Of a DNA stretch of 64,000 nucleotides, positions 7,723 through 61,168 are shown piece by piece. Under the pieces are notes generated by a model. The model was given only the letters and a program-made list of their open reading frames with translations. It was not told where the DNA came from and did not search any database. Position 1 is the first letter of the stretch. Every line of letters starts with the position of its first letter. The stretch is from Methyloversatilis sp. (GTDB lineage: Bacteria; Pseudomonadota; Gammaproteobacteria; Burkholderiales; Rhodocyclaceae). The position numbers and the translations under genes are program-made. The stretch is from positions 1 to 64,000 of the forward strand of contig NZ_JAUYNV010000056.1 of NCBI RefSeq assembly GCF_030698125.1, written 5' to 3'.

Positions 7723-9309
7723 CTAGAAACTCAGGCTGAACGACGCGTGAACCCGGTGACTGCCGGACGCGTAACGGTCTGCGCCATCGATCAGACGAGC
7801 GTAGTCGATCCGCCCCGAGAGCCATGTGGAATAGTTGACGCGCAGGCCCACGCCGGCCGAGAGCACGCCATCCCCTGCAGTTTCCCCCGGCAGCGGATTG
7901 ACTCTGTAAAGATGTGCAACGTCGCCGAACAGCACGCCGCGCATCACCCAGATGTCCTCCGTCCAGGCCGGTGTATCGAGGTCGGCGCTGATCCGCCAGC
8001 CCCGATCGTTGGCCAGCACGCGCTCGCGCAAGCCGCGCACAGACTCGGCTCCGCCAATACCGAACTGTTCGCCGGACACCAGTTCGTCGCGGGTGTATTG
8101 CCCCTGTGCCTGCAGACGCACGCGCCAGTCGCGCGGCAACAACTGGAACCACGAAGCGCTGGCGCGCATCACCGCGAAGCGCGCGTTGGCACCGGCGCGC
8201 AGAGCGTTAAAGTCTGTGTCGCGTCCATGTTCGCCGCCCTGCAGGTTGCGCGCGACGCTGATCTGCACGCCGGCTTCGCGCGTTTCGCCGAGCCAGTTGC
8301 CGCTCCACGACAGGGAAACCGGATGCGTGATGACGCGCGGCACGAGATTGCCGGGTGTGTTGTCGAGCAGGAAGCTGCTGTCGAAGTCGCGCCAGTCGGC
8401 GGCCAGGCTGATGCGCTGCGACAACTCGCCGATGCGCGGCAGGTGCCAGTTGTGGCGCGCGGAAAAGATGCGGCCGCTGCCCGACACGGTTGCGGTCGAA
8501 TTCAGTACCTGCACCTGACCTGAACTGACGCTGGAAAAGCCGGCCACCAGATCGATGGAGTTACCGCTTTGGTATAACGGAATGCGGTAGCCGAGGCCGA
8601 CGATGGTCACGTCGGACGGCTGTTCGATCGAGGTCGTGTATTGCACCGTTGCGACGTGGTCGCGGTTGAACAGGTTGTTGTGTTGCAGACCGACCGAAAC
8701 GCGGTGCGTACCGGTCGATGGCGTGCCGCTGTTGTCCACGGTCACGAATCTGCGCAGCGGATTGCTGTCCGTGACCGATACGGTTGCCGCGATTTCGCCC
8801 GGTTTGCGCGCCGAGCGGAACGTCACGTCGGTCCGCTTCGAAGCATTTTCATTGGCCAGCGCCAACTGGTGCGCGACGGCTTCTGTATTGGGCATGCTGC
8901 CTTCCTCAAGGGCGGGCAGGCTGCGCCGGATGTTCTCGTCGTCGTGGTGCATTGCGCCCTGCAGCGTCAGCGCTTCGAGCTTCGGCTCGAGCACCTCGAG
9001 CGTGACCGTGCCGCTGCTCAGTTCCTGTTCGGGAATGCCGACCTGCGCCGCGCCGAAGCCGCGCTGGTGGTAGGCGGACTGCAGCGCAGTGCGCGCCGCT
9101 TCGATCTCGGCAAATCCGACCGCCTTGCCGACATAGGGGGTGAGCAGCGCATCGACTTCCGGCGGCCGGAAAACCGTACCGCCAGCGACCGCGTAGCTCC
9201 GGACTTCGAATCGCGGACCGTCGGAGGATTCTTCCGCGCGCACATCCGCCGACGCGAATACAGCCCCGCCCACGATCGCGAATGCAAGTCCCGCGTTGAC
9301 AATCGACAC
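7723..9309 (-). CDS. TpsB/FhaC/ShlB-family outer-membrane transporter
   Basis: This protein forms the 16-strand outer-membrane beta-barrel that recognises the TPS domain of its partner in the periplasm and moves it across the outer membrane. The 528-residue product starts at a GTG; an in-frame TAA lies just upstream, which limits the choice of start. A signal peptide ends near ADVRAEE. Two POTRA-like regions cover about residues 34-185, and the rest is barrel. The VRGL motif at 424-427 is the conserved L6-loop signature of the Omp85/TpsB superfamily, and the protein ends in the barrel-type Phe (SLSF). Length and domain order match FhaC-type transporters. It is co-directional with the tpsA gene 176 bp downstream, so the two probably share a transcript. 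Confidence 0.92.
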   Translation of the reverse strand: MSIVNAGLAFAIVGGAVFASADVRAEESSDGPRFEVRSYAVAGGTVFRPPEVDALLTPYVGKAVGFAEIEAARTALQSAYHQRGFGAAQVGIPEQELSSGTVTLEVLEPKLEALTLQGAMHHDDENIRRSLPALEEGSMPNTEAVAHQLALANENASKRTDVTFRSARKPGEIAATVSVTDSNPLRRFVTVDNSGTPSTGTHRVSVGLQHNNLFNRDHVATVQYTTSIEQPSDVTIVGLGYRIPLYQSGNSIDLVAGFSSVSSGQVQVLNSTATVSGSGRIFSARHNWHLPRIGELSQRISLAADWRDFDSSFLLDNTPGNLVPRVITHPVSLSWSGNWLGETREAGVQISVARNLQGGEHGRDTDFNALRAGANARFAVMRASASWFQLLPRDWRVRLQAQGQYTRDELVSGEQFGIGGAESVRGLRERVLANDRGWRISADLDTPAWTEDIWVMRGVLFGDVAHLYRVNPLPGETAGDGVLSAGVGLRVNYSTWLSGRIDYARLIDGADRYASGSHRVHASFSLSF

Positions 9310-10251: not shown

Positions 10252-10923
10252 TCAGCCGCGCAGCGTTTTCACGCCATCGGGCGAGGATATCAGTGCAATG
10301 TCGGCGCGGCGACGGGCGAACAGGCCATTGGTCACAGTGCCGGTCAGGTGGTCCAGCTCGGTTTCGAGCGCGACCGGATCGGTGATGGACAGGCCGGATA
10401 CGTCGATGATCAGGTTGCCGTTATCGGTCACGAAGCCTTCGCGCACCTTCGGCACACCGCCCAGACGGAGCAATTCCCGCGACACCAGCGCAACGGCCAT
10501 CGGAATGACTTCGATCGGCAGCGGGAAGCGTCCCATCACGTCGACGCACTTCGACGCGTCGGCGATGCACACGAAGCAGTCCGACGCCGCGGCCACGATC
10601 TTCTCGCGCGTCAGCGCGCCGCCACCACCCTTGATCAGATGCAGGCCGGGGTCAATCTCGTCCGCGCCGTCGACATAGACCGGAATGCGCCGTCCCGAGG
10701 CGATCGCCTCGTCGAGCGACAGCACGGCGACGCCATGACCGCGCAGCCGCGCAGCCGACGCTTCCGAACTGGCGATTGCCCCGGCGACATTGACGCCTTC
10801 GGAGGCCAGCAGGTCGATGAAGTGATTGGCGGTCGAACCGGTGCCGACTCCTAGCAGTTCGCCCTCGACCACATGTGCCAGTGCCGAACGGGCCACAGCC
10901 TTCTTCAGATCATCGTTGTTCAT
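10252..10923 (-). CDS. rpiA: Ribose-5-phosphate isomerase A
   Basis: RpiA interconverts ribose-5-phosphate and ribulose-5-phosphate in the non-oxidative pentose phosphate pathway. The 223-residue length is typical. Family motifs are visible: GVGTGSTANHFIDLLA (phosphate-binding loop), VDGADEIDPGLHLIKGGGGA with the conserved catalytic Asp/Glu cluster, and TREKIVAAAS. The ATG at 10923 lies three bases after the stop of the nucleotidyltransferase gene upstream (TGAGCGATG), so it probably shares a transcript with the HprK-like cluster, although the functions are not obviously linked. Confidence 0.96.
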   Translation of the reverse strand: MNNDDLKKAVARSALAHVVEGELLGVGTGSTANHFIDLLASEGVNVAGAIASSEASAARLRGHGVAVLSLDEAIASGRRIPVYVDGADEIDPGLHLIKGGGGALTREKIVAAASDCFVCIADASKCVDVMGRFPLPIEVIPMAVALVSRELLRLGGVPKVREGFVTDNGNLIIDVSGLSITDPVALETELDHLTGTVTNGLFARRRADIALISSPDGVKTLRG

Positions 10924-10926
10924 CGC

Positions 10927-12042
10927 TCATCTTGCGGAATCGGTTTCAGCGTCATTATCGGTCTTTTTCGTCAGCTTCATGACGGCTTTGCGGCTCAGGT
11001 GGACGACCAGCAGATGGACCGGCATACGCAGCCAGTGACCGCGTAGATAAAGGAGGAACTGGCTGACGGGTGTCAGGGCATCCATGGCGCTCTCGTGTTG
11101 GGGCGACAGCGCACGTGTGAACAAAGTGTCCAGTACCTTCAGATGCAACGGACCCGGAGCCATGCCCTGTAGCGCCGACGCTGTGACGGGCGGTATCTCG
11201 AGCGAAAGTATCCGCTCCAGATAACGGAAGGCAAGATAGATGGGGCGCCTCAGGCCGACGCCGGCTGCGCGCGCAAGCAGCTTTTGGTCGAAGCATGCGT
11301 CGCGGCTGCGGAATTCCGTGATCAGCGAGTAGAGGTCGAAAAGATCGCGCAACCCGCTGTGAAACTCGCTTTCCAGAAACAGGTGTGTTGCGCTGTGCAG
11401 CACCATGTCCTGCGGTGAAAGTGTCATCAGCCGGCTGTCGGACGCAAGCGGTTCGGCTGCCGCGAGCATCGCCGACGAATCAGCAAGAATTCGCGACGTC
11501 AGCGGCGTCAGTGCGTGATGGATATCGAGCGTGGTGCCGCGACGAATGTGCGACATCGGCGGAATCTCGTGCATCCATTGCCGGTAGTAACGTTGGTCGT
11601 AAGCGTCACGATGCTGACTGACCCAACCATCCACCATGAGTCGTGCTTCGACTTCTCCCAGCTTTTCGCGGGGCACCAGGATATCGATGTCGGAAAAGGT
11701 CCGTCCATGACCGGCCTCGAGACCGCGAAGGACGTACGCGCCGCCCTTCAGCACCACTATCCGGTCATCGAAGGATTTCAGTGCGTCCAGTATCTGACGT
11801 ATTTCATGACCCAGCGACAAATGCTGCTCCGCCACCAGTTGCGCGGCCGAGGCGAGGTGGAGCCACACCCGTTCCGGCACGTGATGCGCATGTCCGCTCC
11901 GGGAAATGACATGATGCAAAAGCCCGAGCAACTTCGACTTTCGGGCTTGCACGATGACCGTCTCCCACTGCCGCAAGGACATGTCAGCGGCACGCCCAGG
12001 GGCCACGAGCAGGATGCAGAGCGGCAGTTTTATTGCGGTCAT
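10927..12042 (-). CDS. Nucleotidyltransferase-fold protein (NTP_transf_5-like)
   Basis: This 371-residue protein resembles the uncharacterised nucleotidyltransferase family often found in capsule, exopolysaccharide and HprK-related loci. LKGG at residues 98-101 and SDIDILV at 117-123 match the Gly-rich strand and the DxD metal-binding pair of the polymerase-beta fold. The remainder is mainly helical. Its ATG overlaps the TGA of the upstream HprK-like gene (ATGA), indicating translational coupling, and rpiA follows after three bases. The substrate is unknown. Pairing with an HprK-like kinase suggests transfer of a nucleotide or phosphate to a small protein or peptide, but that is inference. 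Confidence 0.75.
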   Translation of the reverse strand: MTAIKLPLCILLVAPGRAADMSLRQWETVIVQARKSKLLGLLHHVISRSGHAHHVPERVWLHLASAAQLVAEQHLSLGHEIRQILDALKSFDDRIVVLKGGAYVLRGLEAGHGRTFSDIDILVPREKLGEVEARLMVDGWVSQHRDAYDQRYYRQWMHEIPPMSHIRRGTTLDIHHALTPLTSRILADSSAMLAAAEPLASDSRLMTLSPQDMVLHSATHLFLESEFHSGLRDLFDLYSLITEFRSRDACFDQKLLARAAGVGLRRPIYLAFRYLERILSLEIPPVTASALQGMAPGPLHLKVLDTLFTRALSPQHESAMDALTPVSQFLLYLRGHWLRMPVHLLVVHLSRKAVMKLTKKTDNDAETDSAR

Positions 12043-12947
12043 CGCGTCGCGCGCATGTCGGCGAGCGCATCGAAGCAGGCTATCGCTTCGTCAAGGATGC
12101 TGTACTCGAACTCGAAACATCCGCTTGCGGCTGCGGTGCTCGCCAGTGTGCGGAAGGCCTGCTCGCCGAGACGGTCGCTGTTGAACGAGTTGTCGGCAAG
12201 CGCGATCACGGTGCGCGCACGGGTCATCGGCGACAGACGCAGCGCACTGCCCGCCCGGTACTTCGGAAACGCGATCCAGCCGGGGCGCGCCCGGACGTGT
12301 GTATCAGCGAGTGCCGATGACGGTACCTTCATGTGCGCCACGTCACCCTTGTGGGTATCGGCAAAAACAGGCCCGATGACGTCGACGCCCGCATATTCAC
12401 GCATGACGTCGATCGACCGGTTCTTCAGGCTGATCGGGCGCGGAAAAGGAATCAGTTCCAGTGTATCCGGGGTGATCATGGCGAGCTCATCGGACAGCAG
12501 TCGCCAGCCGCGCGCAGTCAGGCCGGCGCACAGCGTACTTTTGCCGGAACCCGGCGGTGCCGGAAGAATGAGGCCGAAGCCGTTGCGCTCGACCACCGCA
12601 GCATGAATCAACACGCAACGGTGCATGTGCATCGCGATGCACCAGTTCAGGCCCCACTCGAAAAGCGGAAAGGCCTGGTGTTCCGGCAGTGGCTTGAACG
12701 GACGTACACCATCGAGATCGAACGTGATCTGCGGATGGATCGGTCTGCGGAGAAATCCCGGCGTGACCAGCCTTACGGAAAAATCACAAAACCCGTCAGC
12801 CGGCTCGGGAGGGTTGTCCGCATAAAAAAAATCGAACGCACGCCAGAACGCGGGCAAATCACATTGCACGCGTACCGAAAAGCTTCCGATTCTGATCTGG
12901 GAGTGTTTCAGGGGAACAACCTGCTGCGCGGATGGGTGGTCGGCCAC
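12039..12947 (-). CDS. HprK-related kinase (HprK-related kinase A type)
   Basis: The 302-residue protein has a P-loop APPGSGKST (Walker A at residues 132-138) in the context of HPr kinase/phosphorylase, followed by LLSDELAMI with the acidic pair at 153-154. Canonical HprK phosphorylates Ser46 of HPr. This shorter, diverged form matches the HprK-related A family known from conserved clusters with a nucleotidyltransferase and a small PqqD-like protein. No HPr (ptsH) gene lies nearby. The start is a GTG at 12947 with no strong ribosome-binding site. The gene overlaps the downstream nucleotidyltransferase by four bases. Its phosphorylation target is unknown; the small ORF and exported protein just upstream are candidates by position only. 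Confidence 0.8.
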   Translation of the reverse strand: MADHPSAQQVVPLKHSQIRIGSFSVRVQCDLPAFWRAFDFFYADNPPEPADGFCDFSVRLVTPGFLRRPIHPQITFDLDGVRPFKPLPEHQAFPLFEWGLNWCIAMHMHRCVLIHAAVVERNGFGLILPAPPGSGKSTLCAGLTARGWRLLSDELAMITPDTLELIPFPRPISLKNRSIDVMREYAGVDVIGPVFADTHKGDVAHMKVPSSALADTHVRARPGWIAFPKYRAGSALRLSPMTRARTVIALADNSFNSDRLGEQAFRTLASTAAASGCFEFEYSILDEAIACFDALADMRATR

Positions 12948-12977
12948 GCAGCTTAACGGCTTGTGACGCCTGCTGCC

Positions 12978-13124
12978 TTACTGCTGCAGTACTTCCACGA
13001 CAGCGAGTGTGCAGTGCGCCGCGTCATAGACCACGGCTTCCGTTTCGTCAGCAAACCGGGCCACAAGAAGACCTTCAGTTTCGATGAACTCTACCCGACA
13101 GGGCGGGTTGTCGCTTATCCCCAC
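12978..13124 (-). CDS. Small 48-residue ORF, possibly a shortened PqqD-like protein
   Basis: A GTG at 13124 overlaps the end of the upstream exported-protein gene by 10 bp and opens a 48-codon frame ending in TAA at 12978, 30 bp before the HprK-like start. The product contains VARFADETEAVVYDAAH and then VVEVLQQ, which resembles the first part of PqqD-like proteins encoded in HprK-related A clusters (usually about 90 residues). If the resemblance is real, the C-terminal half is missing. No continuation was seen in another frame. It may be a remnant, a minimal partner or a chance frame. Position and protein-like composition are the main support. Confidence 0.4.
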   Translation of the reverse strand: MGISDNPPCRVEFIETEGLLVARFADETEAVVYDAAHCTLAVVEVLQQ

Positions 13125-13891
13125 GTGGTGTTCAGGTAGTCCTGGATCTGACCGGCATCGAGTCCTGTTCCCATCAACTGGTATTGCCCTGAGGTGCTCG
13201 TGCCGCCACCCGTGATCGAATTCCAGATCGCACGAAGCTGGAGGATCGTGACCGGGTAGGTCGTCGGGTAGGCCTTTGCATTCAATACCGCTGCTGCAAT
13301 ATGGCGGGCGAATTGTCCGATCGGTTGTGGAAAGGCCTCTGCGTTGTTGCCGTAGGCGACCAGTTCCCAAAGACTCACCTGACGGGTTCCGTTGCCGCCA
13401 AGACCCGGTATGCCGGTCAGACCGACCGTCGTACCCAACGCGGTAGCAAGCGTTGTGCCGAGCGTACATGCGACAGTCGAGCCACTGACCGTGACCGTGC
13501 CGGATACCCTCCACTTCGAGGTGTCCTTGATTTCGGGGAAGGGCGGCGGGTTGGTGCTTGTGTAGATGTTCCAGCGGCTACTGACCTTTTGGCAGATTTT
13601 CGGCGCCGGCACCGGCCAGTCGCTCGTGAAGCGGCTGCACTGTTGCCAGAAGCCGGGTGACAAGCCGATCTTGCAGTTCGGTGTCGTTCCATCGTTCCGG
13701 CTTACGTTGCCCGACATCTGCCCGGACAGCGTGCATTGGTAGGGCGTTTCGAACGTGGATTTCGCCTGCCGCGCCATCAGCACGCCGCCTACCGCGAACC
13801 CGGCCTTGAGCAGGCTGCGGCGCAGTGCCGTCTCCTGCGGTGTCGGTAACGAAGCGTCGCGAGTGCGATCGATTTCCGATTTATTTTCCAT
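13115..13891 (-). CDS. Exported protein of unknown function in the HprK-like cluster
   Basis: The ATG at 13891 gives 258 residues; the frame continues upstream only to a TTG. The N-terminus contains RRSLLKAGFAVGGVLMA (residues 24-40), a twin-Arg followed by a hydrophobic segment, so Tat or Sec export is likely. tatABC lie at 59.6-61.2 kb. The mature part has a cysteine-containing core (YQCTLSGQMSG, CKIGLSPGFWQQC, CQK, VACTL), and a segment SPGFWQQ resembling SPGYWK motifs of uncharacterised secreted proteins. It ends DYLNTTWG. It is the first gene of a minus-strand cluster that continues with the 48-residue ORF, the HprK-like kinase and the nucleotidyltransferase. The function is not recognised; it could be the substrate or surface product of that system. 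Confidence 0.7.
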   Translation of the reverse strand: MENKSEIDRTRDASLPTPQETALRRSLLKAGFAVGGVLMARQAKSTFETPYQCTLSGQMSGNVSRNDGTTPNCKIGLSPGFWQQCSRFTSDWPVPAPKICQKVSSRWNIYTSTNPPPFPEIKDTSKWRVSGTVTVSGSTVACTLGTTLATALGTTVGLTGIPGLGGNGTRQVSLWELVAYGNNAEAFPQPIGQFARHIAAAVLNAKAYPTTYPVTILQLRAIWNSITGGGTSTSGQYQLMGTGLDAGQIQDYLNTTWG

Positions 13892-60421: not shown

Positions 60422-61168
60422 ATGAACGAACAGACCGAAAGCTTCGTATCCCATCTGGTCGAATTGCGAGACCGGCTGCTGCGCGCCGTCATTGCGGTGG
60501 TCGTGGTGTTCGTGTGCCTGATGCCCTGGGCCGCGGACATCTACGACATCCTTGCTCATCCGCTGATGGTGGCGCTGCCCGAAGGCACCAAGATGATCGC
60601 CACCGGTGTGGTGACGCCGTTCTTCGTCCCGGTGAAGGTGACGCTGATGCTGGCTTTCCTGATCTCGCTGCCGGTGGTGCTCTACCAGGTCTGGGCCTTC
60701 ATTGCGCCCGGCCTGTATGCACACGAAAAGCGACTCGGACTGCCGCTGATCATCGCCAGTACGCTGTTGTTCATCGTCGGGATGGCGTTTTGCTACTTCC
60801 TCGTTTTCGGTGTCGTATTCAGCTTCATCGCGGAATTCGCACCGAAAAGCATCACGCCGGCGCCGGATATCGAGCAATACCTGTCCTTCGTGCTGACCAT
60901 GTTCACCGCCTTCGGCGTCACCTTCGAGGTACCGATCGTGGTCATCGTGCTGGTGCGATTCGGGCTGGTGACCATTGCGCAACTCAAGGAAGCCCGGCCC
61001 TACGTGATCGTCGGCGCCTTCGTCGTGGCGGCGATCGTCACGCCGCCGGATGTGGTGTCGCAGTTGCTGCTGGCGATCCCGCTGTGCCTGCTGTACGAGC
61101 TCGGCATCCTGTTCTCGCGCTTCATCAAGGCGTCACCCGAGCGCAGCAAGGCTGCGCAGGACGCCTGA
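60422..61168 (+). CDS. tatC: Twin-arginine translocase subunit TatC
   Basis: TatC is the polytopic receptor that recognises the twin-Arg signal. The 248-residue protein has about six membrane helices; HLVELRDRLLRAV at the N-terminus and the segment LPVVLYQVWAFIAPGLYAHE, continuing KRLG, are signature regions. Its stop is directly adjacent to the stop of the convergent HtrA gene (TGA at 61166-61168, then 61169), with no intergenic space. No terminator is visible there. Confidence 0.97.
   Translation: MNEQTESFVSHLVELRDRLLRAVIAVVVVFVCLMPWAADIYDILAHPLMVALPEGTKMIATGVVTPFFVPVKVTLMLAFLISLPVVLYQVWAFIAPGLYAHEKRLGLPLIIASTLLFIVGMAFCYFLVFGVVFSFIAEFAPKSITPAPDIEQYLSFVLTMFTAFGVTFEVPIVVIVLVRFGLVTIAQLKEARPYVIVGAFVVAAIVTPPDVVSQLLLAIPLCLLYELGILFSRFIKASPERSKAAQDA

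Follow-up and report, generated by a model that had tools for sequence, protein, structure and literature searches.

The window analyzed here, a 64,000-nucleotide stretch of a contig from Methyloversatilis sp. (NZ_JAUYNV010000056.1), carries on its minus strand, at positions 10927-13891, a run of four genes that brings together a kinase related to HPr kinase (HprK), a nucleotidyltransferase, a short open reading frame (ORF), and a protein with an N-terminal twin-arginine (RR) leader. An initial annotation, made from the sequence alone, had described four minus-strand frames that follow one another with overlaps or short gaps and lead into rpiA, and all of these frames and their coordinates were confirmed. 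The first gene (13115..13891) encodes, from an ATG, 258 amino acids (aa) that comprise the RR leader and a mature domain without a named family; we refer to this protein as the precursor and consider it the candidate substrate of the enzymes encoded next to it. Its stop codon is overlapped by the GTG start of a 48-aa ORF (12978..13124), which appears to occupy the slot of a PqqD-like gene, as indicated by conservation of the slot, purifying selection, and weak profile similarity. The kinase gene follows (12039..12947 from a GTG start, or perhaps from a CTG at 12911), and the run ends with a nucleotidyltransferase of the NTP_transf_5 family (10927..12042; PF14907, 2e-49), the gene for which overlaps that of the kinase by 4 bases. 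Both the nucleotidyltransferase and the HprK-related kinase with an intact P-loop that the initial annotation had reported were thus recovered.

Family assignments, conserved linkage, and analogy with characterized peptide systems lead us to believe that the cassette is, on balance, probably a proteobacterial protein-phosphorylation system guided by a RiPP recognition element (RRE), RiPPs being ribosomally synthesized and post-translationally modified peptides. In pairwise comparisons of the four closest genomes, the ratio of non-synonymous to synonymous substitution rates (dN/dS) is below 1 for all four genes, with values of 0.07-0.13 for the kinase (from residue 27 onward), 0.10-0.18 for the nucleotidyltransferase, 0.16-0.34 for the precursor, and 0.04-0.31 for the 48-aa ORF, in which the substitutions are mainly synonymous.

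Conserved linkage across Pseudomonadota

We examined 67 kinase-bearing loci and counted 66, excluding L063, which carries a distant kinase paralogue (about 108 bits, own profile); L004-L006 were also excluded because their cassette sequences are the same as those of L055, L052, and L057. The nucleotidyltransferase gene lies after the kinase on the same strand, overlapping it or at most 40 bases from its end, in 58 of the 66 loci; it is on the opposite strand in six and missing in two, both with a contig end close to the kinase. A PqqD-like gene stands just before the kinase in 60 loci (with a weak match, E 0.0018, in L131) and elsewhere in L062, and the remaining five have a reduced ORF. An RR-leader protein is encoded upstream in 64 loci (57 assigned by rule and seven by eye), the exceptions being L123, at a contig edge, and L062. 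The initial annotation had made its reading of the cassette as a system depend on conserved linkage in relatives, and such linkage is found for the precursor, PqqD-like, and nucleotidyltransferase genes (64, 60, and 58 of 66); the pairing of HprK-related kinase A with a nucleotidyltransferase and a PqqD-like protein, mentioned in that annotation, is likewise seen across pseudomonadotal loci.

Of 299 genomes sampled from Pseudomonadota, 51 encode a kinase that exceeds the family cut-off, and among 20 loci picked from these 51 kinases, PqqD and the nucleotidyltransferase were each detected by profile in 15. In a sample at the class level, 41 of 369 genomes encode a kinase above the cut-off, and in 34 of these the precursor profile matches at the kinase locus, a co-occurrence that is in large part by construction because loci of this kind served to build the profile. 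The seven kinase-positive genomes without such a match consist of six that carry the second class of precursor described below (G051, G075, G151, G194, G273, and G363) and one in which the kinase lies at a contig edge (G319). With at most eight candidates scored per genome, the precursor profile found no full-length match in any of the 328 kinase-negative genomes. Partial matches in these genomes comprise four leaderless proteins aligned from profile position 76 on and four that match at the leader only, three of them near a sub-cut-off kinase and the fourth (G419, L166) away from one. When the window precursor itself was used as the query, matches were obtained in 16 of 61 relatives. Fifteen of these matches, all in kinase-positive relatives, coincide with the kinase locus, and the remaining one (in G021, at E 0.01 and with three stops) resembles chance; this single-sequence query missed nine other kinase-positive relatives. 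The failure to find full-length, leader-bearing homologues in the kinase-negative genomes of two samples favors the earlier suggestion that the upstream protein is a candidate substrate.

The precursor family

The class I precursors, encoded by ORFs of 185-302 aa, are highly divergent, with a mean column identity of 16% among 53 aligned sequences. Besides the start methionine, the invariant residues are R25, C53, S60, and C73; conservation in at least 90% of the sequences extends to R24, S56, S64, G76, P79, G80, W82, W92, L203, and N204. The two arginines belong to the leader region, residues 18-45 of the window precursor (PQETALRRSLLKAGFAVGGVLMARQAKS; 13757..13840, minus strand). Two of the four invariant residues, C53 and S60, are contributed by a serine patch, C53-x2-S56-x3-S60-x3-S64 (13700..13735, minus strand), which we propose as the modification site from the alignment and a shuffle test. 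In that test, the motif C.{1,4}S.{3,4}S occurs within the first 35 mature residues of 51 of 54 precursors, compared to an expectation of 2.2 and a maximum of seven in 500 shuffles of the mature part; the misses are L125, L120, and L008. In the leader-motif analysis, L008 and L128 were anchored on the wrong RR, and L008 entered the shuffle test in this form and was scored as a miss. L098 was left out of the analysis designated A1, its precursor being identical to that of L097. Conservation of the serine motif lends further support to the view of the upstream protein as a substrate.

Class II precursors (10 members, 74-258 aa) have a leader with the motif PAIxTLHSG, and in six of the ten, CxxS occurs within the last 22 residues (0.7 expected). 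A second sample, found with the profile of the first ten, has this motif as CWxS in 11 of 11 (0.7 expected).

The libraries searched gave no named family for the precursor. None of the 53 class I precursors matches Pfam at E <= 0.01, and NCBIfam gave one unspecific match in class I and two in class II, none specific to the precursor. A PHROGs search returned no result. The AlphaFold2 model of the precursor has a mean predicted local distance difference test (pLDDT) score of 71, with blocks of 77-92 over residues 71-160; its fold has no match in the PDB at E <= 0.001 (best E 0.3), and a search for solved structural relatives was without result, its two matches lying at E 0.34 and 1.

Larger, leaderless proteins in L168, L169, and L171 carry at their C-terminus the same type of mature domain as the precursor (GYWK ... 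LNA). We also considered a proline in the hydrophobic stretch of the leader as a mark of class I. This mark was dropped because the loose pattern also fits 14 of 29 ordinary leaders of the twin-arginine translocation (Tat) pathway among the matches listed, a control set drawn from six genomes (30 loci among the matches listed, with L182 skipped).

Divergent kinases and short leader peptides

Sixteen extra stretches were fetched, partly because they contained matches to the precursor profile or kinases below the cut-off, and ten of them contain a divergent kinase. Five of the latter (L163-L165, L172, and L173) yielded leader peptides of 57-87 aa in profile searches; L166 has leader peptides with no kinase within 11 kb, and together with the five stretches it gives a total of ten peptides. 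All ten leaders contain the motif [YW]xxPx[LVIAFY], compared to none of the 29 ordinary Tat leaders among the matches listed, a comparison in which the ten are not independent because they are related to each other. The report on the linear polyphosphorylated peptides (LPP) of Bacillota (PMC13381572) gives a YxxPx[LVI]-type motif as that of lasso recognition elements and, partially, of LPP leaders. By eye, Gly-Ser follows within a few residues of the motif in the short peptides, in a position like that of Ser3 in LPP. These peptides, with a YxxPx[LVI] leader and a Gly-Ser core start, possibly form a separate family. Including L178, RR-leader peptides occur at up to three per stretch and mostly adjoin divergent HprK-like kinases (L163-L166, L172, L173, and L178).

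The enzymes could instead modify a small molecule or another component of the cell, with the RR protein acting as an effector or carrier rather than a substrate. At least six of the 66 cassettes (L007, L008, L058, L060, L102, and L113) lie near XrtA/PEP-CTERM exopolysaccharide genes, namely those of the PrsT, PEP response regulator, and EpsB families among ten proteins tested; NTP_transf_5 enzymes might, speculatively, make activated sugars or lipids; and the mature precursor domains are large and, given the confidently modeled blocks, seemingly folded. Against this stand the slot occupied in 60 of 66 loci by a PqqD-type, probably peptide-binding protein, the contribution of the serine patch to the invariant residues of so divergent a family, and the short peptides that adjoin the divergent kinases in half of the stretches, and we consider such a target rather unlikely. 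LPP and paeninodin clusters are themselves frequently found within capsule loci, according to the same report (PMC13381572). By analogy, the polysaccharide-gene neighborhoods hint at a surface role, an argument that bears on the relatives rather than on the window.

The PqqD slot and the 48-aa ORF

TIGR04353 ("HPr-rel-A system PqqD family peptide chaperone") is matched at E <= 0.01 by 53 of 56 PqqD proteins of the relatives. Within the genus, it matches at the cassette in eight of 13 genomes (four above the cut-off) and in none of the five reduced cassettes, those of the window and of L052, L055, L056, and L057, all Methyloversatilis, where the slot holds only an ORF of 48-67 codons. The 48-residue frame in the initial annotation stands; its location in the PqqD slot had been missed.

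The similarity of this ORF to the PqqD profile, the seed of which consisted of ORFs of the slot itself, is weak (4.5 bits, a score reached by six of 2000 shuffles and five of 2231 background ORFs) and falls in the strand part (EAVVYD). Alignment of four sister sequences, without that of the window, to PqqD with hhalign gave a probability of 7.7% and P 0.0045. The ORF is retained, with its stop codon, in three sister species at 91.7-97.9% identity. Four of the six pairs were tested for the probability of so few non-synonymous changes under neutrality, which is 1e-4, 3e-5, and 6e-4 for three of them and 0.11 for the most closely related one. Judging by these substitutions, purifying selection acts on the 48-codon form, which is probably a reduced PqqD/RRE-like protein that has kept only the strand part.

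The same data bear on the possibility that the system is decaying in the window clade, with the 48-aa ORF a PqqD fossil and the cassette non-functional. Such decay would account for the lack of a TIGR04353 match at the cassettes of the clade, the altered precursor leader, and the non-canonical start of the kinase, and is hard to square with dN/dS below 0.35 in all four genes, intact conserved catalytic residues, and the low neutral probabilities in three of the four pairs; we judge it improbable. If the cassette is a working RRE-guided phosphorylation system, the changed leader and its weak hydrophobic stretch in this clade imply that the kinase may recognize the precursor with less help, or that export may differ.

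The 48-aa ORF and the kinase gene are in frame, and their fusion by stop read-through was considered. It was rejected because another in-frame stop is present in three sister species and the intervening stretch is unconserved.

The kinase and the nucleotidyltransferase

The kinase scores 360.5 bits against TIGR04352 (HprK-related kinase A; cut-off 200, E 4.7e-108) and shares 95-97% with three named relatives. Its residues H115, K136, D153, E154, K175, and K200 are invariant in all 66 loci, K136 being part of the P-loop (12534..12560, minus strand). HprK and phosphoenolpyruvate carboxykinase (PEPCK) are related proteins, and the AlphaFold2 model of the kinase (pLDDT 94) matches PEPCK best (E 5e-7, TM about 0.5-0.6), followed by HprK (3tqf, E 2e-4). 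The family match and the model fold place the kinase with HprK and PEPCK rather than with unrelated P-loop proteins, the grouping that the initial annotation had named as fatal to its reading. In the lasso peptide kinases, a His-Lys-Asp-Asp set is described as essential (PMC9266682); H115, K136, and D153, with E154 in place of the last aspartate, would fit this set.

A regulatory kinase/phosphorylase in the style of HprK, switching a phosphate on and off instead of maturing a product, would share the HprK-like fold, and the kinase retains some similarity to the canonical family TIGR00679 (20.6 bits). This score is far under the HprK cut-off of 240 bits, the partnership with PqqD and the nucleotidyltransferase is constant, and the canonical HprK of the same genome is encoded separately, on a different contig from the cassette. 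A regulatory switch is, accordingly, very unlikely in our estimation.

The GTG start of the kinase at 12947 is lost in the three closest sister species, where the region is frame-shifted and contains a stop. At the kinase start, a 60-base stretch (12865-12924, minus strand) is identical in four species, compared to a synonymous divergence of up to 0.37 in the kinase, and its only in-frame GTG is near the end, beyond conserved N-terminal residues. These features suggest a CTG start or a regulatory element, and the CTG at 12911, within the identical stretch, seems a more likely start than the GTG. The distant paralogue in L063 (6014-7192, plus strand) has a PqqD-like N-terminal stretch (E 0.0017) and a nucleotidyltransferase-like ORF immediately upstream.

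The nucleotidyltransferase residues K99, G100, R114, D118, D120, D173, H175, and H176 are shared by all 64 sequences compared. D118 and D120 (D118-x-D120, 11683..11691, minus strand) presumably form, with D173, the catalytic triad, as assigned from the nucleotidyltransferase fold. A search for solved structural relatives of this protein found none.

A proposed pathway and its relation to known systems

The initial annotation proposed a peptide or small-protein modification system. Its linkage and family components are upheld; for leader binding, phosphorylation, the nucleotidyl step, export, and the biological role of the cassette, we infer the following. The PqqD-type protein (48 aa in the window clade) would help bring the N-terminal leader of the precursor to the enzymes. 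HprK-related kinase A would then use ATP to phosphorylate, perhaps repeatedly, a serine of the patch just behind the leader, with S60 as the best candidate. The NTP_transf_5 enzyme may cap or extend the phosphate with a nucleotide or another phospho-group, and the product would be exported via Tat and cleaved. Tat is proposed because the leader has the RR and a hydrophobic stretch and because the genome encodes TatC; tatC lies in the same window (60449-61081, plus strand; PF00902, 3.6e-71), about 46 kb from the cassette.

The nearest characterized analogue is LPP of Bacillota (PMC13381572), which shares with the cassette a precursor, a discrete RRE, an HprK-like kinase, and an NTP transferase, as well as a variable core with a conserved serine directly behind the leader. 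In that system, the RRE presents the leader; LppK, the HprK-like kinase encoded with the RRE and the NTP transferase, places several phosphates on core Ser3; and deletion of LppN has no visible effect. LPP clusters differ in having a dedicated SpI-like peptidase, an MsbA-like exporter, and precursors of 35-200 aa, as opposed to the Tat-like leader and 185-302 aa ORFs found here, and LPP is described as restricted to Bacillota. The LPP leader motif YxxPxVLxHQxIxFETxxS is absent from the window precursor. The phosphorylated lasso peptides, such as paeninodin, also combine an HprK-like kinase and a nucleotidyltransferase in a RiPP cluster with a serine target. Their kinases, PadeK and ThcoK, phosphorylate a C-terminal serine (PMC9266682), in parallel to the target proposed here for class II precursors. 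The cassette precursor is far larger than those of lasso systems, and, without a search aimed at them, neither a lasso cyclase nor a B2 protease was seen alongside it. Bufferins and other RiPPs modified by multinuclear non-heme iron-dependent oxidative enzymes (MNIOs) employ Sec rather than Tat and differ in enzymes and chemistry. They resemble the present precursors in possessing a signal peptide (PMC12452194).

The cassette also resembles the HPr-rel-A system (NCBIfam TIGR04352 and TIGR04353) in its kinase far above the cut-off, PqqD slot, nucleotidyltransferase, and usual gene order, and differs in that the window slot holds only the 48-aa ORF without a TIGR04353 match. A linked nucleotidyltransferase, which we take to be a feature of the HPr-rel-A system, is present at the window cassette. 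The kinase and the PqqD chaperone are already catalogued in NCBIfam; the likely target has no family name in the libraries searched. A literature search covering few subscription journals found no paper on HprK-related kinase A, the HPr-rel-A system, its PqqD family chaperone, or TIGR04352, and TIGR04353 was likewise not found by term in the literature examined. A term search of the RRE-Finder paper (PMC7470986) and of PMC12710340 gave neither "HPr" nor "kinase".

Several observations weigh against RRE-guided phosphorylation and Tat export of the precursor. In the phylum-level sample, profiles detected the precursor at 14 of the 20 loci, with one more (L230) recognized by eye; the serine motif is kept in two of the three new class I members; and the precursor counts are not independent because the precursors are homologous. 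The kinase-positive genome G356 encodes another full-length class I precursor on a different contig (L167:5905-7101, minus strand), with no kinase in the 12 kb seen, possibly an unlinked substrate. Just five of the ten divergent-kinase stretches give peptides by profile; a pattern adds L178, and L174-L177 have none. The window 48-aa ORF has no TIGR04353 match, and the window clade has no full PqqD protein. The nucleotidyl step is without precedent because no effect was seen when LppN was deleted in the host of the published work. As for export, the Tat model TIGR01409 does not match the window precursor up to E 10 and, at E <= 0.01, matches no precursor of class I (53 examined) or class II (10 examined); nine of the ten short peptides score 12.5-15.5 bits (cut-off 16.7). 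By eye, the hydrophobic stretch of the window leader is short and a clear cleavage site is lacking, and the loose proline pattern occurs in 48 of 74 rows (short peptides included) versus 14 of 29 ordinary Tat leaders among the matches listed.

In a broader and distinctly more tentative scenario, leader-guided phosphoproteins may be widespread in Proteobacteria: an RRE-type protein would read a Tat signal as the recognition leader, the kinase and the nucleotidyltransferase would install phospho- or nucleotidyl-serines beside conserved cysteines of whole proteins before export, related machineries would act on anything from peptides of about 57 aa to proteins of about 300 aa, and the RRE of Methyloversatilis would be a working, strand-only form of 48 aa. 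With a likely substrate, a leader, and a candidate serine named, the system becomes testable in one co-expression experiment and offers a way to approach what the NTP transferase of lasso and LPP clusters does, a question still unsolved. It also suggests that RiPP-type recognition may extend to whole exported proteins.

Genomic neighborhood

A search for a fifth conserved cassette gene found none; by eye, the large clusters outside the genus resemble antisense ORFs, housekeeping genes, or polysaccharide genes. Within Methyloversatilis, the kinase is above the cut-off in all 13 genomes, and the flanking gene families recur. In the window, the cassette is flanked on one side by rpiA (10252-10923, NCBIfam match), after the nucleotidyltransferase gene, and on the other by a dihydrolipoamide dehydrogenase-like gene, named by eye. 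Nearby (7723-9309, minus strand) lies a gene for an outer-membrane transporter of the two-partner-secretion type, ShlB/FhaC-like by eye.

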